From: a bacterium
Lineage (GTDB): Bacteria; UBA10199; JAIBAG01
Assembly (NCBI GenBank): GCA_019695305.1
Contig: JAIBAG010000011.1
Span: forward strand, 1-64,000
Length of the DNA stretch: 64,000 bases
Direction: 5' to 3'
Below the pieces are notes generated by a model that was not told the DNA's origin, did not search any database, and saw only the letters and a list, made by a program, of their open reading frames with translations. The position numbers and the translations under genes are program-made. This document shows, piece by piece, positions 196-12,758 of the stretch. Position 1 is the stretch's first letter; each line of letters starts with the position of its first letter.

Positions 196-363
196 CACTT
201 GGGTAGCAAATGGTTCGCCTCATATCTAAAAAGATTCTTAATACAACCATGAATGGAGAAGAAGATCAGAAAGATCCTAAAATGAGCCAAGCACAAGACT
301 TAGGAAGCAGATGGTTTAACGTGCATCTCAAAAAATTAAGGGAAAACCTGATGAAAAAGTAAA
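196..363 (+). pseudogene. RAYT (REP-associated tyrosine transposase) C-terminal tail, chimeric relic
   Basis: Two pieces of RAYT C-terminus are joined. Positions about 196-237 encode LGSKWFASYLKRF, and 239-363 encode the tail from NTTMNGEEDQKDPKM to ENLMKK and a stop. From 239 to the following REP copy the DNA is almost identical to 5047-5217, with one G/A difference noticed near the stop. Catalytic regions are absent, so this cannot be an active transposase. It sits directly before REP copy 394-411, the same order as the other tails in this region. Confidence 0.75.
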
Positions 364-393
364 ATTATTTTATTATTTATCAGTGGCTTCCGC

Positions 394-411
394 GCGTGCC
401 TGGCACCGGGG
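394..411 (+). repeat. REP-like palindromic repeat, copy 1
   Basis: GCGTGCCTGGCACCGGGG with the core palindrome GTGCC-T-GGCAC. It follows a RAYT tail by about 30 bases. Confidence 0.8.
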
Positions 412-414
412 TTC

Positions 415-521
415 TTTACAGATTATTAATGATCAGTTCGAAACTCCCTTTCGGGCAATAAAAAACCCCTTGATTTCTCAAGGGGTTAATCGATGCGTCC
501 CTTACTCGAGGATTTTAGAAC
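415..521. repeat. 107-bp direct repeat, left copy, carrying a minus-strand terminator
   Basis: The segment matches 1756-1862 with two mismatches seen (504 versus 1845, 517 versus 1858). The two copies bracket the hydrolase gene at 733-1704. Each contains a 10-bp stem with a 4-base loop (464-487 here) that, on the minus strand, is followed by a run of T: a good intrinsic terminator for minus-strand transcription. The right part contains GTTCGAAA-like text reminiscent of a tRNA T-arm, but no tRNA can be folded from it. Confidence 0.8.
464..487 (-). terminator. Intrinsic terminator on the minus strand inside the left direct repeat
   Basis: AACCCCTTGA pairs perfectly with TCAAGGGGTT around a TTTC loop; on the minus strand the stem is followed by TTTTTATTG. 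No gene reading into it from the right on the minus strand is visible, so it is probably carried along with the repeat. Confidence 0.6.
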
Positions 522-532
522 TGAGTGCTTGG

Positions 533-551
533 CCCTGAGCCTGTCGAAGGG
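533..551. repeat. Widespread short palindrome CCCTGAGCCTGTCGAAGGG
   Basis: This imperfect palindrome is the REP-like motif scattered through many proteobacterial genomes. One copy was noticed here, just after the left direct repeat. Confidence 0.6.
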
Positions 552-732
552 TTTGGCGATAGCGGCTTAAACAATCTACTGAATCAACTAAAACAAATAA
601 TAAAGGTTTTTTAGACTCTATTTTAAATGAGCGTTTCAATTGTTGTGAAAAGCTAAATAATTGATATTGGTATGTAAATTGACCTTTGACTTTTTTTATT
701 TTAAAAAAGCTCTCTAAGAAAAGGAGATAATT

Positions 733-1704
733 ATGAGTAGAATTTCAAACGAAAGAATGTCCAAAGCTATGAAACAGTTGGAATCTATTTCCAAAGAGGA
801 TCACGAAAAAGTTATGGCTCTGGCTAATATTGTTAAGCCCTTAAGAAGCGTTCTTCACAAAACTCCTGATGATTACGACATGAAAGGCTGGGAAGACATT
901 TATTTCCAGTCCGATGACGGAATCCCCTTAGAAGGCTGGTATATCAGCGCAACAGGCGGAGAAAGTGATAAATTAATTATTTTCAATCATGCTCTACCTA
1001 TGTGTCGTGCTGGTTTTCCTGGTCACCTTGGAGAGCCTTGGAGTCAGTTCGATGCCGTCGAAATCGACTTTGTGATTCAAATGAAACATTTTGCTGATGC
1101 TGGTTATAATGTTCTGGCTTATGACATTAGAAACCACGGAAATAGTGGCGCTGCCAATGGTGGGCTCTCTGGTATCGGCCAATGGGAGTGGAGAGACTGC
1201 GTCGGTGTAAAAAAATATGTCGATTCGCACCCACGATTATCAAAAATGAAAGTGGGTCTATATAGTCAATGTATGGGCGGCAACTCTCAATATGAGGCTA
1301 TTTCACGAAAACCTGATCTCTTTGAAAATGTCTCTTGTATGTGCAGTCCAATGGTTGTTTCAATGTCAGCTATTTATTCGGCGTTTTCAGAGCTATACGG
1401 AGTGAGTCAGTATCAAGAATTAATTGATTTAGAGTTATTGAAAATGGGAGCCTTTGTCGCTGATGAAATGACACCTCATAAAGCGGCTCCAAATGTAAAA
1501 ATGCCAGTTCTAATGGTACAAGTTTACGATGATGAGTGGACAAGAAATCCCGAAGATGCCCAAAAGACTTTTGATCTACTTGGAAGCGAAGAAAAAGAAT
1601 TGTTATGGATAAGAGACACGACAAAAAGATTTAAAGATGGATACAATTATTTTGGAAGACACCCAGAAAAGATTCTTCCGTTTTTCGATAAATATATGAA
1701 GTGA
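733..1704 (+). CDS. Alpha/beta hydrolase with a cysteine nucleophile (dienelactone-hydrolase-like)
   Basis: This is a 323-residue soluble alpha/beta hydrolase. The strand before the oxyanion turn is LIIFNHALP (81-89), YDIRNHGNSG is at 130-139, and the nucleophile elbow reads SQCMGG (178-183), so the nucleophile would be Cys180 where most relatives have Ser. This is the GxCxGG form of dienelactone hydrolases. A likely acid lies in VYDDEWT (about 244-250) and the likely His in FGRHPEK near residue 312. The start has a strong Shine-Dalgarno (AAAAGGAG) 6-7 bases upstream. The substrate is unknown. The gene stands alone between two 107-bp direct repeats in a repeat-rich zone, which suggests it may have arrived as a unit. 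Confidence 0.8.
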   Translation: MSRISNERMSKAMKQLESISKEDHEKVMALANIVKPLRSVLHKTPDDYDMKGWEDIYFQSDDGIPLEGWYISATGGESDKLIIFNHALPMCRAGFPGHLGEPWSQFDAVEIDFVIQMKHFADAGYNVLAYDIRNHGNSGAANGGLSGIGQWEWRDCVGVKKYVDSHPRLSKMKVGLYSQCMGGNSQYEAISRKPDLFENVSCMCSPMVVSMSAIYSAFSELYGVSQYQELIDLELLKMGAFVADEMTPHKAAPNVKMPVLMVQVYDDEWTRNPEDAQKTFDLLGSEEKELLWIRDTTKRFKDGYNYFGRHPEKILPFFDKYMK

Positions 1705-1755
1705 GTATGAGCTGACACAAGCTCAACTTCAATATTGATTCAGCTACCATGTATT

Positions 1756-1862
1756 TTTACAGATTATTAATGATCAGTTCGAAACTCCCTTTCGGGCAAT
1801 AAAAAACCCCTTGATTTCTCAAGGGGTTAATCGATGCGTCCCTTGCTCGAGGATTTTCGAAC
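1756..1862. repeat. 107-bp direct repeat, right copy
   Basis: Partner of 415-521. It carries the same minus-strand terminator stem (1805-1828), here placed about 100 bases after the hydrolase stop codon. In the plus direction the stem is preceded rather than followed by the A/T run, so it is not an obvious terminator for the hydrolase gene. Confidence 0.8.
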
Positions 1863-2177
1863 CGAATGTTTGAGATTAGCAGCTTAAACTTACAGACCGC
1901 TTCACAGCATACCATTCGATAAAGTCCTGATGTTTTGCAAAAAATTGGTAACATTATAAAATGATTTTAAATTAGCTAACCAATTGTATTTAATTGGTTA
2001 TTTAAGATATTTTATCTTTTAACAACCTCGGTGCCAGGCACGCGCAAAACCCCATGATAATCAAATGGATTAGAGTCCGAAAATGAGACTCTTGAGTCCG
2101 ATTTTGAGACTGTTACGGCACTATTGTGAGACTCTCCAATTTTATTTATCAATCATTTCAACAATTTAGACTTCCAC
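1863..2177. other. Intergenic repeat debris
   Basis: No gene is seen. The stretch holds an inverted REP copy (2027-2044) and a cluster of GAGTCC/GAGAC motifs (2072-2137) like those at 141-185. Confidence 0.5.
2027..2044 (-). repeat. REP-like repeat, inverted copy
   Basis: CTCGGTGCCAGGCACGCGC is the reverse complement of the REP unit with one change. It is the only well-preserved copy in inverse orientation in the cluster. Confidence 0.7.
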
Positions 2178-2195
2178 GCGTGCCTGGCACCGGGG
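2178..2195 (+). repeat. REP-like repeat copy
   Basis: GCGTGCCTGGCACCGGGG followed by CTATAA. No clear RAYT tail precedes this copy. Confidence 0.8.
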
Positions 2196-2269
2196 CTATA
2201 AACCTGTTTCATGAGTGGGAATTTGTCAAGAATTGAGAGTCAACTTCAGCAACAATACCTACCCCAATA

Positions 2270-2346
2270 GAGCAAGGAAAAACCTGATGGAAAAATAAAG
2301 TTAGTTTGTTTTTTACGATGGGTTCTACGCGTGCCTGGCACCGGGG
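2270..2346 (+). repeat. Degraded RAYT tail plus REP copy (REP at 2329-2346)
   Basis: The text AGCAAGGAAAAACCTGATGG followed by AAAAATAAA is a decayed form of the RAYT tail end (ENLMKK-stop), followed 30 bases on by an intact REP unit at 2329-2346. The REP supplies the stop codon and last residues of the minus-strand gene to its right. Confidence 0.65.
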
Positions 2347-2645
2347 CTACTGAGTGTATCAAGAACAGATTGAATGGTATCAAAAGGTTCGTCTTTATCT
2401 GTTAGCTGAATACAATTTACATCTTCCCATTTATAGGGCAATTTTAAAACGGTGCTCTTTTTAATATCGATAATAAAATCTTTACGATCACACATAAACT
2501 TCACAAGTTCATTGTTACATTGAAACACCACAATAAAACTTCCAAAGGCACTTTTATGATACTCATGAGCCGCTAAATCCCACTTAGACGCGTGATTCTT
2601 TTTGAGAAAGTTATAGAGCTTTTCAATTTGGGTGTCTTTATGCAT
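2325..2645 (-). CDS. Hypothetical protein whose 3' end is replaced by a REP copy
   Basis: The 106-residue frame begins MHKDTQIEKLYNFLKK and shows no signal peptide or membrane segment. It is rich in charged residues (KFMCDRKDFIIDIKK). Its last residues, SPGARHA and the stop TAG, are read from the reverse strand of the REP unit at 2329-2346, so the original C-terminus was probably lost or altered when the repeat arrived. No family was recognised. No convincing Shine-Dalgarno precedes the ATG at 2645. It may be a functional shortened protein or a decaying gene. Confidence 0.5.
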   Translation of the reverse strand: MHKDTQIEKLYNFLKKNHASKWDLAAHEYHKSAFGSFIVVFQCNNELVKFMCDRKDFIIDIKKSTVLKLPYKWEDVNCIQLTDKDEPFDTIQSVLDTLSSPGARHA

Positions 2646-2710
2646 AGGGAAAAATTTTAGATAAAGGGGGCTAAAAAAGAAAGTCTTTATTTATGCCTAA
2701 CCCAGCATTT

Positions 2711-2729
2711 CCCGGCGCCAGGCACAGGT
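2711..2729 (-). repeat. Degenerate inverted REP copy
   Basis: CCCGGCGCCAGGCACAGGT resembles the reverse complement of the REP unit with several changes. Confidence 0.5.
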
Positions 2730-2746
2730 ATATTCTCAGTTTAGTG

Positions 2747-2867
2747 AATACCATCATGAATGGAGAAGAAGATCAGAAAGATACAAACTGAGCCAAGAAC
2801 AACATATGGGAAGCAGATGATTTGTCGCATATTTAAAAAAATAAGGGAAAACCTGATGAAAAAATAA
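2747..2867 (+). pseudogene. RAYT C-terminal tail relic
   Basis: The DNA parallels 5050-5170 but carries substitutions, an in-frame stop (GATACAAACTGA where the intact copy has GATCCTAAAATGA) and small length changes. It ends with the same AACCTGATGAAAAAATAA and is followed by REP copy 2899-2916. It is older than the 239-363 copy, judging by the number of changes. Confidence 0.7.
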
Positions 2868-2898
2868 AATTAGTTTGTTGTTTTACGAGGGCTTCGAC

Positions 2899-2916
2899 GC
2901 GTGCCTGGCACCGGGG
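2899..2916 (+). repeat. REP-like repeat copy joined to the dinD-like fragment
   Basis: GCGTGCCTGGCACCGGGG. The GTG at 2901 inside it is the only upstream start codon for the fragment that follows. Confidence 0.8.
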
Positions 2917-3296
2917 TTCAAGAGTTGACCCCGTTAACTTGGACTTTGTCCAATAAGTTAACAGCGTCCCTCATTCTTCTTGGAGTTACCCCCTCCGAAT
3001 ATAAAAATCTAAAGGGATTACAGCGAGAAAATCTGCGCGATCACATGACTGATTTGGAACTTATTTTTACTACGTTAGGCGAAGCCTCAACAACAGCCAT
3101 TGCTCGCACCGATGATGCGGTGGGTTTTGAACAAAATAAATCAGCTGCAGTTCGAGGTGGACGTGTTGCCGGCAACGCCAGAAAAGAGTTGGAAACCCAA
3201 ACGGGTAAAAATGTGGTAACAAAACAGAATTACCTGGGGTTGAAAGCAAAACCGGTTTTATTAAAGGAAGCTTTAAAGAAGAAAACTAAAAAGTAG
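2901..3296 (+). pseudogene. DinD-like (DNA-damage-inducible protein D / BRO-type) C-terminal fragment
   Basis: The 131-residue frame starts at a GTG inside a REP copy, giving the repeat-derived MPGTGV. From about residue 35 it reads EYKNLKGLQRENLRDHMTDLE, then AIARTDDAVGFEQNK and GGRVAGNARKELE. This is the conserved C-terminal region of the DinD-like proteins that carry an N-terminal BRO domain. A full gene would be roughly twice as long, and the N-terminal domain is missing. The gene was therefore cut at the REP. Expression from the repeat's GTG is possible but there is no Shine-Dalgarno. Family assignment is from recognition of the motif string. Confidence 0.65.
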
Positions 3297-3302
3297 TGAG
3301 AC

Positions 3303-3313
3303 TGGCACCGGGG
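3303..3313 (+). repeat. Partial REP copy
   Basis: TGGCACCGGGG right after the stop of the dinD-like fragment; a further decayed copy (GCGCGTTAGGCACCAGGAC) lies at about 3331-3350. The fragment is thus bracketed by REP sequence on both sides. Confidence 0.55.
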
Positions 3314-3544
3314 CTATTTAAAACGGTTATATGCGCGTTAGGCACCAGGACTAAGGACCATGTACCTCAATCTGGCAGTTTTACCCCCCAGTTTTAAAGC
3401 CCTCATCTTTTCACTTACATACAAACTACCTGAAATTATTAGCCTTATTATTCGTGGTAACTGGCCTTTGTTTTGCAAAATAAACAGCTGACAAGGGCTA
3501 GTTTTATACCAACAACCTTAGAAACTAAAAGAAAGCGATTTTTT

Positions 3545-4198
3545 ATGAAAAATTTTATCCACTCATTAATAATGGCCACATTTATTTTTGGTATGTCCAA
3601 TCAATCCATGGCTGGCTCGCAAAATGAAACTCCAAAAATGATCAAAACCCAAGGTTTTAGAACAACAGTCCCGGCAATTAATGGGGCTGAGCTAAGTCTT
3701 TATACCAACAATAAAAAGGTAAGTTGTGAGTGCGCCTATGCTATTGAAAGAACTTTTGAATGTGTAGTGGATGGTAGCAAATTTAATGATTTTAATAATA
3801 CCTTTGGTTCAGATGTTATTAGTGGGAATCAAAATGAAAGCTTTAACAGCGCAGCAGAAGGTGGCTTTTCTTCTGTTACACTTGAATACAAAAAAGATGC
3901 AACATGGTTTGCAGTTCCTTGGGCAGGCCCTTTTTTGTATGAATATGGTCCTCAAAAACTGGAACATTTTACAATCGCTGGTTCGTGCAGCGATATTGGC
4001 TTAAGAGTTGATAACCAAGCCACTGGTTCCACTTGCGAATCGTGTCATACATCATGTGTTGCAAACAGCCCCGATAAAAAAGCTTATCAAAATGCCATGC
4101 AAGACTGCATAGCGCGTTACACTCAATTTTGTAATGCAGGCACCATTAAAATAAATACTGAATTTCAGGACAAAGTAAATAGTTGCTCGGAAGAATAA
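3545..4198 (+). CDS. Small secreted cysteine-rich protein with one CxxCH motif
   Basis: The frame is open from 3473, but the ATG at 3545 gives a standard signal peptide (MKNFIHSLIMATFIFGMSNQ, cleavage after SMA-G), so this start is chosen; the product is 217 residues. The mature protein has about ten cysteines, including CECAY, CESCHTSC and two near the C-terminus. CESCH fits the haem c attachment pattern CxxCH, but no other cytochrome feature was found, and paired cysteines in a secreted protein more simply suggest disulfides. No family was recognised. It stands alone between decayed repeats. Confidence 0.65.
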   Translation: MKNFIHSLIMATFIFGMSNQSMAGSQNETPKMIKTQGFRTTVPAINGAELSLYTNNKKVSCECAYAIERTFECVVDGSKFNDFNNTFGSDVISGNQNESFNSAAEGGFSSVTLEYKKDATWFAVPWAGPFLYEYGPQKLEHFTIAGSCSDIGLRVDNQATGSTCESCHTSCVANSPDKKAYQNAMQDCIARYTQFCNAGTIKINTEFQDKVNSCSEE

Positions 4199-4204
4199 AC
4201 GTGT

Positions 4205-4256
4205 GACAAGCAGGTACTACGCGTGCCCAAACCTGCTTGGCAGAGGGGCTATTTTT
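4205..4256 (+). repeat. Degenerate REP copy with an insertion
   Basis: GCGTGCC, then about ten extra bases (CAAACCTGCT), then TGGCAGAGGGG: a REP unit apparently interrupted. Confidence 0.4.
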
Positions 4257-4278
4257 TTATCTGCGCCAACACGTATGG

Positions 4279-4380
4279 TTAAACAATAACAGATTCAAAT
4301 AAAGGGTTAGTTTTGTCCCAGGTTTGAGCTTCTTCTAAGGTAGGTTTACGCAGCTCTCCTGTGGTAATCCATTGTGTTAC
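4279..4380 (-). pseudogene. Gene relic, C-terminal 33 codons only
   Basis: On the minus strand 4380-4282 reads VTQWITTGELRKPTLEEA, continuing QTWDKTNPLFESVIV, and ends with TAA at 4281-4279. An in-frame stop lies directly upstream. The composition looks like real protein, but the rest of the gene is absent. No family was recognised. Confidence 0.35.
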
Positions 4381-4469
4381 CTAAGCATTAAGGGTCAACT
4401 CTTGAAACTTGAAAATCAATGGGCCTAGTAGCGAGGTAAACCTGTCCGCTGTCACGACCTGACCCCAAT

Positions 4470-4676
4470 AATTACACGCCACACACCAGCTACCTGGCTT
4501 TGTCTACCAACCCCCAAAAACGAATGAAAATTTATACGGAGTATGTGACCACAACCGCTCCCCATGAAGCCGATGAAAAAGACCCAAAGATGAGTAATGA
4601 ATTGGGAATAGGAAGCGATGCTTTCCTCGCCAAACTCAACAAAATCAAAAACAAAATGAAGCGAAAATTGAAGTAA
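4470..4676 (+). pseudogene. Second RAYT C-terminal relic, diverged family member
   Basis: The frame encodes TPHTSYLALSTNPQKRM, a middle part with TEYVTTTAPHEADEKDPKM, and ends KMKRKLK-stop. It aligns with TPHTCYLGLSRDPEKRK and DQKDPKM of the copy at 4722-5170 but is clearly a different, diverged sequence. It precedes REP copy 4704-4721 by about 27 bases, showing that the tail-then-REP order holds even for an unrelated-looking tail. Confidence 0.7.
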
Positions 4677-4703
4677 AACTATTTAGTTTTCATGTGGTTC
4701 CAC

Positions 4704-4721
4704 GCGTGCCTGGCACCGGGG
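4704..4721 (+). repeat. REP-like repeat copy
   Basis: GCGTGCCTGGCACCGGGG between the diverged RAYT tail and the longer RAYT fragment. Confidence 0.8.
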
Positions 4722-5170
4722 TTTTTACCCTTTCAAAAACAATAATGCTTATTAACTGGAAGTTTGCCCGTAAAATGAACAAGCTTAAAAAAAGAAGAGG
4801 TCACTTTTGGCTAGACCGGTATAAATGTATTCCCGTTGAAAGCGATGAGTATTGTTTAGCACTGATGCGTTATATTAATCGCAACCCACTAAGAGCAAAA
4901 ATGATTACTGAATGTGGCGAGTGGAAATGGAGTGGGTATCATTATTATGCAAACGGAGAACCCAATGATCTCATTACTCCACATACTTGCTACTTGGGTT
5001 TGTCGCGTGATCCCGAAAAAAGAAAAAAGGAATATACCAGCTTCGTTAATACAACCATGAATGGAGAAGAAGATCAGAAAGATCCTAAAATGAGCCAAGC
5101 ACAAGACTTAGGAAGCAGATGGTTTAACGTGCATCTCAAAAAATTAAGGGAAAACCTGATGAAAAAATAA
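4722..5170 (+). pseudogene. RAYT (Y1/REP-associated tyrosine transposase), N-terminally truncated
   Basis: An open frame of about 150 codons carries the conserved RAYT C-terminal half: RRGHFWLDRYKC, then ESDEYCLALMRYINRNPLRA and WKWSGYHYY. RAYTs are single-strand-DNA HUH endonucleases with a catalytic Tyr that move REP hairpins. The N-terminal part with the HUH histidines is missing because the frame begins at the REP copy 4704-4721, so this copy cannot catalyse transposition. The catalytic Tyr position is also not evident (the INWKFARKMN segment has Phe). It ends ENLMKK and is followed by two REP copies. It appears to be the parent of the shorter tails at 239-363, 2747-2867 and 5688-5722. 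Confidence 0.85.
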
Positions 5171-5201
5171 AATTATTTTATTATTTATCAGTGGCTTCCG
5201 C

Positions 5202-5245
5202 GCGTGCCTGGCACCGGAGCTATCCGCGCGTGCCTGGCACCGGGG
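5202..5245 (+). repeat. Two tandem REP-like copies (5202-5219 and 5228-5245)
   Basis: GCGTGCCTGGCACCGGAG then GCGTGCCTGGCACCGGGG, eight bases apart, after the RAYT fragment. The second ends three bases before the 3' end of the minus-strand membrane-protein gene. Confidence 0.8.
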
Positions 5246-5248
5246 CTA

Positions 5249-5608
5249 TCATTGCTCTTGAATTAATCTAGTAATCTTTTTACTCAAAAAAGAAATCGCT
5301 ACTATCCCGAGAAAAAAAGAAATCACAAACAGCGGCAAAGTAAGAGCTACAACTCCAATATCACCGGGATCGTCACAAACGTAGCCAAACATGAGGATTT
5401 GGCAGTCTATATTTAAACGTGCGGAAGCAACACAAGAGCCAAAATTAATAAGAAAATAAATTAAGAGAGAAAATTTTAAAAAGTTTTTAGAAATTACCTT
5501 ATGCAAAAGCCATATACAAATTACAGCCAAGAGTGGACCAATAAATCCAAATAAGTAGTAGTGGATAAAATCGTTATACCAATAGCTTTGGCAAAGAAAT
5601 TGAGTCAT
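5249..5608 (-). CDS. Small integral membrane protein, function unknown
   Basis: The 119-residue product has about three hydrophobic helices: FGFIGPLLAVICIWLL (about 21-36), FSLLIYFLINFGSCVA and ALTLPLFVISFFLGIVAI. Between the second and third lies a loop with Cys pairs (NIDCQ, GYVCDD). It ends in a charged tail. No family was recognised. Its stop codon lies three bases from a REP copy, so the natural C-terminus may have been changed. It is AT-rich like the genes to its right. Confidence 0.6.
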   Translation of the reverse strand: MTQFLCQSYWYNDFIHYYLFGFIGPLLAVICIWLLHKVISKNFLKFSLLIYFLINFGSCVASARLNIDCQILMFGYVCDDPGDIGVVALTLPLFVISFFLGIVAISFLSKKITRLIQEQ

Positions 5609-5687
5609 TAGGTTTTATAGTAACACGCTATTTATTCAATTAAAATCATTTAGTTTTCCAAGCTTCAAAAGCTACCCTCGTTACCCT

Positions 5688-5722
5688 TCAAAAAATTAAG
5701 GGAAAACCTGATGAAAAAATAA
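5688..5722 (+). pseudogene. RAYT 3'-end relic (last 11 codons)
   Basis: The last codons of the RAYT tail (KKLRENLMKK-stop) followed by the same AATTATTTTATTATTTATC spacer as at 5170-5190 and then REP copy 5754-5771. It is the shortest visible tail-plus-REP unit. Confidence 0.7.
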
Positions 5723-5753
5723 AATTATTTTATTATTTATCAGTGGTTTCCGC

Positions 5754-5822
5754 GCGTGCCTGGCACCGGGGCTATATCAGTGGCTTCCGCGCGTGCCTGG
5801 CACCGGAGCTATGGCACCGGAG
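5754..5822 (+). repeat. REP-like copies at 5754-5771 and 5791-5808 plus a partial at 5812-5822
   Basis: Two full units and a partial TGGCACCGGAG. The spacer between the first two repeats the end of the tail spacer (ATCAGTGGCTTCC), showing local duplication. The partial copy ends 11 bases before the stop codon of the defence-cassette gene at 5834. Confidence 0.8.
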
Positions 5823-5833
5823 CTAGTTACTTT

Positions 5834-6424
5834 TTATTCAGAATATACGTGAGTTCTTCTAGGCCATTGCATATTATATCCATGAAATCTTTTATTGATC
5901 TTATATAAATATGAGAAATTTTTTTCTAAAAAATTTAGATTAAATTCATCAGGAATAACTTCTAACCAATTACTAATAGAATTAATAAATTGTCCTAACT
6001 CATAATATATAATCTTTTGATCACATTTTCCGTCTAAAATTTCACTAGCAATTAGATTTAAAATTTGGGCCATTCTGTCAGTAGCACCTTGATCAATAGG
6101 ACCTTCTGCAAATAAAGAAGAAAAAGGAAGTTCATGTATATCCATCCCCTCAGCATGCATAAAATGGCCATGTGAAGCTCCGCTTGACTCGGAACTTCCT
6201 TGAAATATTTTTTTCCATTCTTCTATGTCTTCTTTTTTCAACGAAGAGTAGAATAAATCGATTAGCTTTAAGCTGTTCTCCAATTTTCTTTGACCTTGTG
6301 CAGTAACATAAGTCTTATAGGCAATTATTGCTCCAATTATCAACAAGCTCGTTTTAAGCCAATCTTGTTCTATCAAAGATTTTAAATTAGAAAAAAAATT
6401 AATAAAAAAATGACACATAATCAT
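5834..6424 (-). CDS. Single-pass membrane-anchored protein, possible companion of the Shedu nuclease
   Basis: The 196-residue product has an N-terminal hydrophobic helix (LKTSLLIIGAIIAYKTYVTA, about 23-42) followed by a mainly helical, charged cytoplasmic-looking domain (QRKLENSLKLIDLFY, then EWKKIFQGS). A His/Met-rich stretch, SHGHFMHAEGMDIHELP, lies in the middle. The layout of one N-terminal helix plus a helical domain is common among unknown proteins of defence islands, but no family was recognised. It starts 41 bases after the nuclease gene on the same strand and is likely co-transcribed. Codon use is AT-rich. No strong Shine-Dalgarno is seen; Met3 at 6418 is an alternative start. Confidence 0.6.
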   Translation of the reverse strand: MIMCHFFINFFSNLKSLIEQDWLKTSLLIIGAIIAYKTYVTAQGQRKLENSLKLIDLFYSSLKKEDIEEWKKIFQGSSESSGASHGHFMHAEGMDIHELPFSSLFAEGPIDQGATDRMAQILNLIASEILDGKCDQKIIYYELGQFINSISNWLEVIPDEFNLNFLEKNFSYLYKINKRFHGYNMQWPRRTHVYSE

Positions 6425-6465
6425 CTTAACAAACTGAAGATGTCTTCGCCGATCAAATTAAAATG

Positions 6466-7851
6466 TTATTCAGAATTAATATTCTTTATATAGTCATCCG
6501 CAATTTGCAAAATTTCATCAAAAGTAAGAATTTCAATATTTTGTAAGCTATTTCTTAACTTTGTAAAATCCCGTTGTAATACACTCACCCGTTTTTTATC
6601 CAAGTCTCTTGAGGCCAGTTTAGCATGTGATGATATTATAATAATTCCACGTGGATGATACAGATTTTCTTCTTCGGTTGATTGAGTAATTTTTGAATTA
6701 TCTTCTGGATTTTGGAAACGACGCTGAACAATAGCATCCATGTAGTTCATAGTTTGGATTATCGACCTGCTTAGTTCCGAAGAAAAACTGAAATTTTTAT
6801 GAGATTCATCCCAACATACTGCATTTTTTAAATGTGTTTTAATTTCTATAATATCCAAACCATTATAGTGATTAATCCCTATAAAATCCGGATATTTTTT
6901 ATCACTATGAATATTTACCAACTCTATTTTTGGATAAATTTTTTTATAAGAAAACACTAAATAAAGCAGATATCGTTCAAAATATTTCTGCCATATATTT
7001 TCTAATTGTTTAATTTCATTTGGGGTATCTGATATCTCTGCAATTATTTTTCTCGCCTTTTTGGATTTTATATCATTTTTCCCCAGCGCTAATATTTTTC
7101 GCCCCAAACGAATAATATCTCTCAATTTTTCTTTAATAAAATATTCATCAAGGGACTTAAGAAATTCTTTCGGAAAAACTTCATCTCTTATCATTTTTTC
7201 GGCAAGCCTAGACAAGTTTTGAATATCATTTTCATCTATATATTTCTCATAATCCTTTCTTCTTTTTTTAGTCTTTAAATTAAAGCGCTCAATTAGAAAA
7301 GAAAAATCACCCTTATCTGTAGTCGTAACCTCTTTAGGAATGTTATTTGTATATCTTACTTTTAATTTATTAATTAAATATGTCTCTAGCCTATTCTTGC
7401 TTGACTTGCCTTTAAAATAAACTTCTTTACTGTCATTAATAAGATTAAGGATAATTTCTTCTTGTATAACTAAAAATCCTCTTTTTGCATAACGTCTTAT
7501 TTCAGATCCTATTTTAGTAATTTTTATTTTATGAAAAATTTCATCATTTATACTCAAAACTCTTTTGATATAATCAAAATATTTAAAGTCATAATTGATT
7601 CCTCGCTTTGCATATATCAGTTTTAATAGATCTATTTCTGAATCAATCTCAAAAGTTGGCCTATTATTTCTTTTTTCATATTTATTATCTGCCCTATTAA
7701 AGAAAATAATATTTAATATATACTTATTATTTTCTTTAATAAGAAGATCACCTGCGGGGCAAGAAATTCTATCCGATTTAAAAACTATGCTTGGCCAGCT
7801 TAGCCCTTCAAAAAATTTCCATATCTCATCTGATTGGCCTGGCATAGTCAT
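6466..7851 (-). CDS. sduA: Shedu-type antiphage nuclease (SduA, DUF4263 domain)
   Basis: The 461-residue protein has a C-terminal PD-(D/E)XK nuclease domain of the Shedu/DUF4263 type. KYFERYLLYL (289-298) leads in, KYPDF gives Asp322, IIEIKTHL gives Glu336 and Lys338, and SIIQTMNYMD gives Gln366. PRGIIIISSH (400-409) follows as the next core strand. Residues 1-280 form a large N-terminal region without recognised domains, typical for Shedu proteins, where it varies and is thought to sense infection or control the nuclease. Shedu proteins protect bacteria from phages through a nuclease activity. It lies in the middle of a three-gene minus-strand run, 18 bases after the 145-residue gene. Its strongly AT-rich sequence differs from the chromosomal genes to the right, suggesting transfer. 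The exact Shedu subtype is not determined. Confidence 0.8.
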   Translation of the reverse strand: MTMPGQSDEIWKFFEGLSWPSIVFKSDRISCPAGDLLIKENNKYILNIIFFNRADNKYEKRNNRPTFEIDSEIDLLKLIYAKRGINYDFKYFDYIKRVLSINDEIFHKIKITKIGSEIRRYAKRGFLVIQEEIILNLINDSKEVYFKGKSSKNRLETYLINKLKVRYTNNIPKEVTTTDKGDFSFLIERFNLKTKKRRKDYEKYIDENDIQNLSRLAEKMIRDEVFPKEFLKSLDEYFIKEKLRDIIRLGRKILALGKNDIKSKKARKIIAEISDTPNEIKQLENIWQKYFERYLLYLVFSYKKIYPKIELVNIHSDKKYPDFIGINHYNGLDIIEIKTHLKNAVCWDESHKNFSFSSELSRSIIQTMNYMDAIVQRRFQNPEDNSKITQSTEEENLYHPRGIIIISSHAKLASRDLDKKRVSVLQRDFTKLRNSLQNIEILTFDEILQIADDYIKNINSE

Positions 7852-7869
7852 TCATCTTTATTAAAAAAA

Positions 7870-8307
7870 TTATTTATTACGTACATTAAGTTCGTTTAAA
7901 ATTTCTTTTTTAACTTCCTTTATTAACATGAGTACTTCATTTTCGTCTTGATATTCTTTATTACTTCGCCAATTTTCTTCCCCTCCACCGGACATAATAA
8001 TGCCTCTTACAATTTTCAAATCTTTCCACTGATCAATTTGATACGAATACCTACCATTATACTTAAAAAGACCATGGTCGATATAGTTTCGTCTTTTATG
8101 AATCGTGGCAATAGCTAATTCTTTTAAATGATTAATCGCATCAAATTCTCTTTTATAATCATGAATAAATATGCGTGCAATACATTCACCAGCTCCTCCA
8201 GAAGAAAGAACACATTCTAATAAATTTTCTTTAACCCATTTATGGATAGTTGCAATATATCCATCCCTCTCAAGGGCATCTATTTCTTGAAAATTATCAT
8301 CAGTCAT
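7870..8307 (-). CDS. Hypothetical protein, first gene of the Shedu cassette
   Basis: The 145-residue soluble protein starts MTDDNFQEIDALERDGY and has a good Shine-Dalgarno (AAGGA) eight bases upstream. It contains SSGGAGECIARIF and IIMSGGGEENW, and the segment ATIHKRRNYIDHGLF. The C-terminus is a charged helix (MLIKEVKKEILNELN). No family was recognised. It is followed after 18 bases by the nuclease gene, so the two are probably one transcript. It could be a regulator, sensor or inhibitor of the nuclease, but that is only inferred from position. Confidence 0.6.
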   Translation of the reverse strand: MTDDNFQEIDALERDGYIATIHKWVKENLLECVLSSGGAGECIARIFIHDYKREFDAINHLKELAIATIHKRRNYIDHGLFKYNGRYSYQIDQWKDLKIVRGIIMSGGGEENWRSNKEYQDENEVLMLIKEVKKEILNELNVRNK

Positions 8308-8350: not shown

Positions 8351-8578
8351 TCATCCCCCACAAACCTTACAAGCCACACCCCCACGCCGATAAGCTTCAC
8401 TCCGCGAAATAACAATACAATTCCGTGTGCATTTTTGTCCCCAATGGCAACTGAGTTTATGCACTTTTCCATTACTCACATTAAAATAAACCTGTGTATC
8501 GGTTTGCGCGGGAATTGCCGTAAAAAACGTGGCTAATAAAACCCAAACAAATATAATTTTGCGAGCATGGTTTAGCAT
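8351..8578 (-). CDS. Small secreted cysteine-rich protein
   Basis: The ATG at 8578 is preferred over the in-frame GTG at 8590 because AGGGG lies five bases before it. The 75-residue product has a signal peptide (MLNHARKIIFVWVLLATFFT) and a mature domain VYFNVSNGKVHKLSC...CTRNC...GVACKVCGG. The pattern of a short beta segment, HKLSC and a terminal CKVC resembles small zinc-binding domains found fused to nucleases and in secreted proteins. The function is unknown. It is 44 bases beyond the cassette start and on the same strand, but has its own good ribosome site. Confidence 0.6.
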   Translation of the reverse strand: MLNHARKIIFVWVLLATFFTAIPAQTDTQVYFNVSNGKVHKLSCHWGQKCTRNCIVISRSEAYRRGGVACKVCGG

Positions 8579-8769
8579 GTTGCCCCTCACCCCAAAGCTC
8601 TAACCTGCCCTCCAAAAATATCAATGTAAAATTAGTAGAAATCTCTTTTATTTTTAAGCAGTTGGATAATTTTTTATCCTAGAGGATTATACTTACTCAA
8701 AGGGGCTTGAATGGCACTTATACCAACATATCCATTTACATTTTTACTGTAATTTCAAATAACTACTTT

Positions 8770-9932: not shown

Positions 9933-11864
9933 TTATCTTACCCGTAAAGCAACACCGCACCCGGTTTGCCATTGGGTAGGGTCCATAAAATTAAAACCGG
10001 CACTGCATTCAACACTTAGGGCTTTGTAGTTTGTGCCAAATGTAATTTCGTCCATAACCATAAAACGCGCTGCATCGGCAATATCAATAGAAATTGAAGG
10101 CCCATTTAATAAATAAAAGCCACCTGCATCATGAAATGCATGCGAATAATAACCGCCTTTTATATCAAAACCTAAATCTAAGGGAGATTTATCATCTTTA
10201 GCAGGATTATACTGATGAAACGATAAATCCACTCCAGTACTCAACATACCTTCTACTTTATGATTTAATTTTGGACCACTGCTATAAAGCCTATAGGCCA
10301 TTTTTAAATCTAACAAAGGTCTATCTAGCTTTGTATCGTAAGAACCGCCCACGTAAAACATTCCTTCATGCTTGGTACTTTGGCCCTCTACCTCTTCCTC
10401 TTGAGAAGCACTGGTATCAATATCCAAAACACTTTTTAAGTGCTTTGCCAAACTAGCATCGGTAGTACTTCTAATAATTTCTAATAAAGCAGATTCAACG
10501 TAGTTTTTTGCCCCTTGTGCAATTTGGGGATCAGCCATCAATTCTTCTAAAAACAAAACCCAGGTAGCATCGGCCTCACCTTTTAAAAAACTTTCGCTCA
10601 CCATGGTACAAAAATTGCCAACAACTGTGTAAAAATTATTATAGCCGCTCTCATCCTGATTATTTTGAGCACTCGCTTTAACCCACTTTTTTAAAACATC
10701 TCTTACTTGGGGATTACTAGAGGTAAGAGCTGGCTTAAAGGATAAAGGATTTAAATTTTTCCATCGGTTATCTACCGCTGGCGCCTCAACACGGGCTAAA
10801 GCCAAAATAACTTCTTCTGAAAATATCCCCCTTACGCGAGAGGTATTATCCAAAATTTTTTCCGCTGCTTTTTCCTGCCACACCGGAGGAAGCTGCGGAA
10901 AAATTTGCACTAATAATTGAGTTTTTGCCTCAACATCATCGTAGTCTAAAAATTGTAGTAACAAAAATAAATGAATGGGTTTTAAAGGATCGGTTTTAAT
11001 GGTTTCTAGGGAATACTTTGAGGGAACATCATTGTAATCTAAATTACACACGTCCATCAGACGCGTAAGCACAGCGGCATCTTCTTCTAAATTGCATCCC
11101 TCCATCCATTGTTCTAAAGCCGGCATCAACTTTTCGGGTGTAAAAAGTCCATTTATTAAATCTGTAGCAATGCTCTTACTTAAAAGAAAATCGTTTAGAA
11201 TTGAATCAAGAATATTTAAATAGTTATCGTCTCCTCCTGTTGTATAATAATGGTTTTCGGCTACATATTCTTGCTCGGTAAAACAAGCATAGGGAATGTC
11301 TTGTTTTAATACTTTTAACTTTTCTTTTTCTTCTTCTGTTAACGGTACTTCACCGGCATATATTTCTCTGTGATGCAAATCTCGGTAAAGAGCTAAATTG
11401 GGCTCTCTATCACAATGAAAATGATAAGCCCCATAAGCCAAACTACTGGTTGATTCCGATGCAAATCTTAAGGTGTCTGGGTTTTTAAAATCGTCTATGG
11501 CATGATTAAGCTCGTGATCAACCGTATCAAGAGCTCCACCCATAAGTAAGGTGTCGTAAGGCAAATGAATGGTGTTTTCTTGTGGTGAATAATACGCATG
11601 CGCCGATTGCGGGTTATAAATACGGCCGTCGTTAATAACATCACTAGCTTCTAAACTAAATTTGAGGGGCCTTTCTTTGCCTACACCGGTAAATAATTTT
11701 TTAAACTGGGCGGGGTCATGAACTTGAAAGCGCGCTAAACACACGGCAATGGTGGCCAGGAGATTGTAATTAGCCTGGTCATCTTTATCTTCTACATGCA
11801 CCACCTGATCACCCACGGTAAGGGTGTCGTGCTCCACGTCTATTTTATACGGCTTCACTTCCAT
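9933..11864 (-). CDS. Metallopeptidase-like protein (HELNH) with a beta-rich C-terminus
   Basis: The 643-residue product has no signal peptide. VDHELNHAIDD (116-126) fits the HExxH zinc-binding motif (His117, Glu118, His121); a third ligand could not be assigned. Residues about 130-500 are helical, including FLLLQFLDYDDVEAKTQLL, and look repeat-like. The last 140 residues (from FYVGGSYDTKL) alternate like beta strands and end GVALRVR, resembling a beta-barrel or beta-sandwich. A zinc peptidase site joined to such a C-terminus without a secretion signal is unusual. The neighbour to its left is convergent, and the SDR gene to its right is divergent. The function is unknown. Confidence 0.6.
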   Translation of the reverse strand: MEVKPYKIDVEHDTLTVGDQVVHVEDKDDQANYNLLATIAVCLARFQVHDPAQFKKLFTGVGKERPLKFSLEASDVINDGRIYNPQSAHAYYSPQENTIHLPYDTLLMGGALDTVDHELNHAIDDFKNPDTLRFASESTSSLAYGAYHFHCDREPNLALYRDLHHREIYAGEVPLTEEEKEKLKVLKQDIPYACFTEQEYVAENHYYTTGGDDNYLNILDSILNDFLLSKSIATDLINGLFTPEKLMPALEQWMEGCNLEEDAAVLTRLMDVCNLDYNDVPSKYSLETIKTDPLKPIHLFLLLQFLDYDDVEAKTQLLVQIFPQLPPVWQEKAAEKILDNTSRVRGIFSEEVILALARVEAPAVDNRWKNLNPLSFKPALTSSNPQVRDVLKKWVKASAQNNQDESGYNNFYTVVGNFCTMVSESFLKGEADATWVLFLEELMADPQIAQGAKNYVESALLEIIRSTTDASLAKHLKSVLDIDTSASQEEEVEGQSTKHEGMFYVGGSYDTKLDRPLLDLKMAYRLYSSGPKLNHKVEGMLSTGVDLSFHQYNPAKDDKSPLDLGFDIKGGYYSHAFHDAGGFYLLNGPSISIDIADAARFMVMDEITFGTNYKALSVECSAGFNFMDPTQWQTGCGVALRVR

Positions 11865-11984: not shown

Positions 11985-12758
11985 ATGTCTAAAACCATTA
12001 TCATCACGGGGGCGTCCACCGGCATTGGGCGCGATATGGCGCTGCAATATGCACAGCAGGGTTATCATGTGGGGCTTATTGCACGCAGGCTCGATTTGCT
12101 GGAAAACCTACGCGACGATATTAAAACTGTTTCTCCTGGCTCTAAGGTAGTGCTGGCCAATTGCGATGTGGCCGATTTTACTCAGGCCCAGCAAATTGTG
12201 CGACAAATGATTACCGAGCTGGATAATAGAATTGATATTTTTATTGCCAACGCCGGCATTGGCATTCCTACTCCCGCTTTTAAAAATAATTGGGCCGAAA
12301 TTAAACGCACGCTCGATATAAATGTTTATGGCGCTATTGCTACAATAGAAGCCGCTAAAGAAGTGATGCTGGCACAAAAAAGCGGACATTTGGTGGGCAT
12401 TACCTCGGTTGCGGCCATGCGTGGATTACCCGGCAGCTCGGCTTACTGTACCAGTAAAATTGCCCTGTCCACGTATCTGGAATCAATCCGGATTGATCTT
12501 AAACCTTATGGCATTTCTGTTACCGCCATTCATCCTGGGTTTATTGATACACCCATGACTAAAAAGAATAAATTTCACATGCCGTTTTTACTCACAAGCC
12601 CCGAAAGCGCTCAAAAAATTATTAAAGCCATTAGCCGCGGTAAAAAACGCTACTATTTCCCCTGGCCCATGGCCCTTCTTTATAAAATGGTGCGCATTTT
12701 ACCCGACTGCTGGAGCGATTTCTTTTTAGGCTTGGCCGCGCCTAAGATTAAAAGATAA
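11985..12758 (+). CDS. Short-chain dehydrogenase/reductase (SDR)
   Basis: The 257-residue classical SDR has the cofactor motif TGASTGIG (8-15), NAG (89-91) and the catalytic triad Ser141, Tyr154 and Lys158 (YCTSK). ARR after the second strand favours NADP(H). The C-terminal region contains AAPKIKR and a hydrophobic stretch near 220-240, as in SDRs acting on lipids or sterol-like ketones. It opens a plus-strand run with a START/SRPBCC-like secreted protein, a small secreted protein and a MaoC-like protein, suggesting lipid metabolism. The substrate is not known. Confidence 0.9.
   Translation: MSKTIIITGASTGIGRDMALQYAQQGYHVGLIARRLDLLENLRDDIKTVSPGSKVVLANCDVADFTQAQQIVRQMITELDNRIDIFIANAGIGIPTPAFKNNWAEIKRTLDINVYGAIATIEAAKEVMLAQKSGHLVGITSVAAMRGLPGSSAYCTSKIALSTYLESIRIDLKPYGISVTAIHPGFIDTPMTKKNKFHMPFLLTSPESAQKIIKAISRGKKRYYFPWPMALLYKMVRILPDCWSDFFLGLAAPKIKR

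Follow-up and report, generated by a model that had tools for sequence, protein, structure and literature searches.

A Shedu-family nuclease gene in an AT-rich cassette

Does a Shedu-type nuclease that lies between two small genes act with them as an extended, partly membrane-anchored defense system, or does it act alone? The question is raised by three AT-rich genes in a window of 64,000 bases, which comprises bases 1-64000 of its contig in a draft bacterial genome of 2.78 Mb and 58 contigs. The first-pass annotation of this DNA had suggested that they may form an extended system. We instead favor, with a probability of about 0.72, a stand-alone single-gene type I Shedu nuclease (sduA) in a small acquired defense patch, with the 145-aa and 196-aa genes as neighbors. 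The relevant features are:

5201-5812, plus strand: REP-like repeats and duplicated RAYT 3' ends, abutting the cassette
5834-6424, minus strand: gene for a 196-aa protein, probably with a single transmembrane helix near its N terminus; a neighbor, membership of a system not supported
6466-7851, minus strand: sduA, 461 aa, Shedu-family PD-(D/E)xK nuclease by Pfam PF14082 and PADLOC SduA
6754-6756, minus strand: codon of Q366, invariant in the alignment
6838-6846, minus strand: codons of E336-I337-K338, nuclease motif; E and K invariant in the alignment
6886-6891, minus strand: codons of P321-D322, nuclease motif; residue positions checked, and in the alignment
7870-8307, minus strand: gene for a 145-aa orphan protein with a coding signature; a neighbor, membership of a system not supported
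8351-8590, minus strand: 79-aa ORF, probably exported, with a signal-like N terminus as read from the sequence; of ordinary GC (43%)

The three ORFs have the lengths and gaps first described, with 41 bases between the 196-aa gene and sduA and 18 bases between sduA and the 145-aa gene, all on the minus strand. The run is not confined to three genes, however, and also takes in the 79-aa ORF, which is read from the minus strand as well and is separated from the 145-aa gene by 43 bases on its upstream side. Spacings as short as 18 and 41 bases would allow an operon, and the companions are possibly cotranscribed with sduA. The cassette is indeed AT-rich: its three genes have 27.7-30.6% GC, compared to 39-46% for the genes at 8351-8590, 9933-11864 and 11985-12758, while two further neighbor genes are intermediate (33-35%). 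Of 3000 Markov shuffles of the cassette, 5 produced an ORF of at least 145 aa. GC at the third codon position (GC3) is low in all three genes. Because long ORFs are rare in the shuffles and GC3 is low, the 145-aa, 461-aa and 196-aa genes are probably all real coding genes.

The 461-aa protein has a Shedu nuclease domain and a divergent N-terminal region

The identification of the central gene product as a Shedu-type nuclease was borne out by a match to the Pfam family SduA_C (PF14082; E 2.2e-18, 67.4 bits against a cut-off of 27), spanning about residues 283-448, and by a PADLOC SduA match at 2.4e-14, with eight PADLOC SduA models matched in all. P321, D322, E336, K338 and Q366 are at the positions claimed for them. 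E336, K338 and Q366 do not vary across an alignment of six SduA_C domains, the window's and five from other genomes. Judged from these matches, the window contains an intact Shedu-family (SduA, DUF4263/PF14082) nuclease gene.

Relatives of the protein were found only through this C-terminal domain. One comes from a genome of the same class and is 36% identical; a Leptospira plasmid gave a further, weak match. SduA itself had no match in the viral-contig scan or the phage search. The host phylum is sparsely sampled, with 46 genomes in a single class. Above the cut-off, SduA_C was present in seven of the 385 genomes sampled, one of them the window's own, and in five of 82 from another phylum. 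The ~275 residues ahead of the nuclease domain matched no known domain. Residues 1-275 are also without a convincing relative in 384 other genomes and have no PDB match by sequence. A single-sequence structure model of the whole protein reached a pLDDT of 33.5, too low to inform on this region.

Published type I and type II Shedu are single-protein systems with a common nuclease, and type I carries diverse N-terminal regulators (PMC12409362, PMC12137116, PMC12904381). An N-terminal region without relatives, attached to a nuclease domain that has them, fits the published type I pattern. The window protein resembles the type I systems (E. coli SduA, Loeff et al. 2025; diverse-sensor Shedu, Gu et al. 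2025; cited in PMC12904381, PMC12137116 and PMC12409362) in its C-terminal SduA_C/DUF4263 PD-(D/E)xK nuclease and in the long region preceding it, and in those systems a single gene is the functional unit. It differs in that its N-terminal ~275 residues match no known domain. VcSduA, a type I-D Shedu with a GHKL ATPase (PMC12137116), likewise has its nuclease domain at the C terminus, but a Pfam search found no GHKL ATPase domain in the window protein. Among the PADLOC SduA models, PDLC00402 covers residues 258-458 and PDLC00393, with 455 positions, aligns to residues 160-448. Although the overall size fits, the first 160 residues are left uncovered by both.

By analogy with these systems, the functional unit would be sduA alone, with the C-terminal PD-(D/E)xK domain as the effector. 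The N-terminal ~275 residues are probably a regulatory or sensor region that would keep the nuclease inactive until a DNA feature associated with phage is bound; free DNA ends and intermediates of replication or recombination are the likeliest candidates. Activated SduA would then cut phage DNA. In E. coli SduA, an N-terminal clamp binds DNA ends and nicking occurs at a fixed distance from them (PMC12904381). From such studied relatives we infer autoinhibition, DNA-end sensing, oligomerization and phage protection for the window SduA. The 145-aa and 196-aa genes would be co-acquired AT-rich passengers that are not required, even if transcribed with it. Against this single-gene reading, the sensor role of the N-terminal region is assumed, the companions have too few relatives for a proper measure of co-occurrence, and the low GC, strand and short gaps common to the three genes also fit an operon of partners. 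The protein adds to the Shedu family a divergent nuclease whose N-terminal region is unclassified and whose host phylum is sparsely sampled, and it should help in charting how diverse Shedu sensors are.

Companion genes are absent from 19 other Shedu loci

The 196-aa protein belongs to no Pfam, PADLOC or NCBIfam family above cut-off, and its short match in PHROGs is confined to the transmembrane region. A search of 72,556 plasmid records yielded one relative, on plasmid pIITB6_2 of Synechococcus elongatus IITB6, with 41% identity over 80% of the length and the common core LFAEGPxDxGAxxRMA. A two-sequence profile of this family had no match in 384 other genomes, and short exact motif scans of 84,980 species genomes and of viral contigs confirmed nothing. 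The description of the window protein as a single-pass membrane protein holds in part. Its helix is weak when the protein is taken alone (Kyte-Doolittle maximum of 1.27) but clear in the Synechococcus relative (2.04). In the 11.5 kb read around that relative, the neighbors include a BrnT/BrnA toxin-antitoxin pair, a PIN-domain protein and a DUF87 protein, and Shedu is absent among the annotated genes.

The comparison took in 19 further loci of the Shedu family. Six are from plasmids; of the 13 from whole genomes, a few are on short contigs and one (L029) falls below the Pfam cut-off. Relatives of the 145-aa or 196-aa protein were present at none of the 19. The genes beside these other Shedu genes include, by sequence reading, a probable Mrr-like restriction enzyme and HsdM/HsdS/HsdR-like genes; a Gabija-like ATPase and UvrD helicase pair and a HEPN protein are also present. 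Such surroundings look like general defense islands and not like a fixed three-gene module. This co-occurrence comparison speaks against the three-gene proposal of the first-pass annotation. It is weak rather than decisive because the 196-aa protein has one relative and the 145-aa protein none that is reliable.

Several of these loci have features of their own. On two conjugative plasmids (L067 and L068), the genes immediately after Shedu encode an AAA ATPase and a helicase of the ATP-dependent/UvrD type, in a Gabija-like arrangement. Another locus (L080, 3578-5209) encodes a 543-aa SduA_C-TIR-Lcl_C fusion in which the Shedu nuclease domain is N-terminal and the TIR domain comes next. A 230-aa single-pass protein beside this fusion looked similar by eye to the 196-aa protein, but the two are unrelated by profile.

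In an extended Shedu system, SduA would be regulated by the 145-aa protein and anchored or activated at the membrane by the 196-aa protein, so that a membrane-anchored, three-gene variant with a new N-terminal sensor cuts phage DNA near its site of entry. The gene order, common strand, short gaps and shared AT-richness would fit such a system, and membrane-embedded sensors with nucleases or DNA-targeting proteins do exist in Zorya, Kiwa and SNIPE (PMC12904381). These membrane-embedded defenses offer a functional analogy only if the 196-aa protein is a partner, and we found no homology between them and it. The sole relative of the 196-aa protein has no annotated Shedu next to it, and this, with the absence of any relative from the 384 other genomes, the lack of companion homologues at the other Shedu loci and the single-protein action of published type I and II Shedu, makes the extended system unlikely. 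Nothing beyond gene order speaks positively for it. If the neighbors were partners, this would be, to our knowledge, the first multigene, membrane-linked Shedu, but the present evidence points the other way.

About equally improbable is a mixed island, in which sduA is a defense gene, the 196-aa protein is a separate small membrane effector or toxin, and the 145-aa protein regulates one of the two or serves as its antitoxin. The BrnT/BrnA pair adjoining the Synechococcus relative on its plasmid is in keeping with such an arrangement, as is a candidate second nuclease in the window: the plus-strand ORF at 8707-9783 matches PADLOC PDC-S26 at 1.3e-7, has a weak PDDEXK_4 match below cut-off, and is possibly a second defense nuclease near the Shedu gene. 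The 196-aa protein also has a likeness to the retron Ec48 effector that would suit an effector role. That match (E 0.0094, far below cut-off) is limited to the transmembrane region, and we rejected it as probably just a common transmembrane pattern. Additionally, neither small protein could be assigned to any family.

The 145-aa protein is an orphan

The first-pass annotation called the 145-residue gene unknown, and our searches agree: its product has no Pfam, PADLOC or NCBIfam family, no reliable relative across the 385 genomes searched, and none in plasmids, phages or viral contigs. Its single-sequence structure model had a pLDDT of 35.9. Its origin from a DpnII-type restriction enzyme domain, by decay or repurposing, is very unlikely, since other DpnII members and the DpnII profile fail to recognize the protein and the catalytic D, E and K are replaced at the aligned positions. 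The resemblance that raised the idea is to the DpnII enzymes of four genomes: 85-93 collinear residues align at ~30-35% identity, with scores that exceed nearly all shuffles, and hhalign gives a probability of 78.7. However, the best E-values (about 8e-4 per genome) are near chance given the number of genomes searched, six other DpnII members scored no better than shuffles, the DpnII profile did not rank the protein above shuffles, and Pfam DpnII (PF04556) had no match at E<=1. A frameshift-aware alignment to DpnII gave no frameshift signal and gained nothing. On these comparisons, we treat the protein as an orphan.

Mobile-element debris borders the cassette

The cassette was also said to abut mobile-element debris, and it does. 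Pfam identifies a Y1_Tnp/RAYT-like fragment (RAYT, REP-associated tyrosine transposase) at the left edge, and repeated RAYT 3' ends with REP-like motifs extend to base 5812. With these remnants on the left and the possible second nuclease on the right, the cassette appears to sit in a small, rearranged patch.

An 88-base segment of the 3' end and REP is repeated five times between 328 and 5775. The motif CGCGTGCCTGGCACCGG, with one mismatch allowed, has 10 copies in 393-5806 and two other matches in the whole genome, so that 10 of its 12 genome matches lie within 328-5812, at the contig end. In this interval, these REP-like motifs and the repeated RAYT 3' ends form a dense cluster, nearly all on one strand, with unrelated genes between them. 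The array looks like the product of repeated one-ended duplications of the RAYT tail. A 117-base direct repeat at 415-531 and 1756-1872, 96% identical and bearing a terminator-like palindrome, flanks an alpha/beta hydrolase gene at 733-1704.
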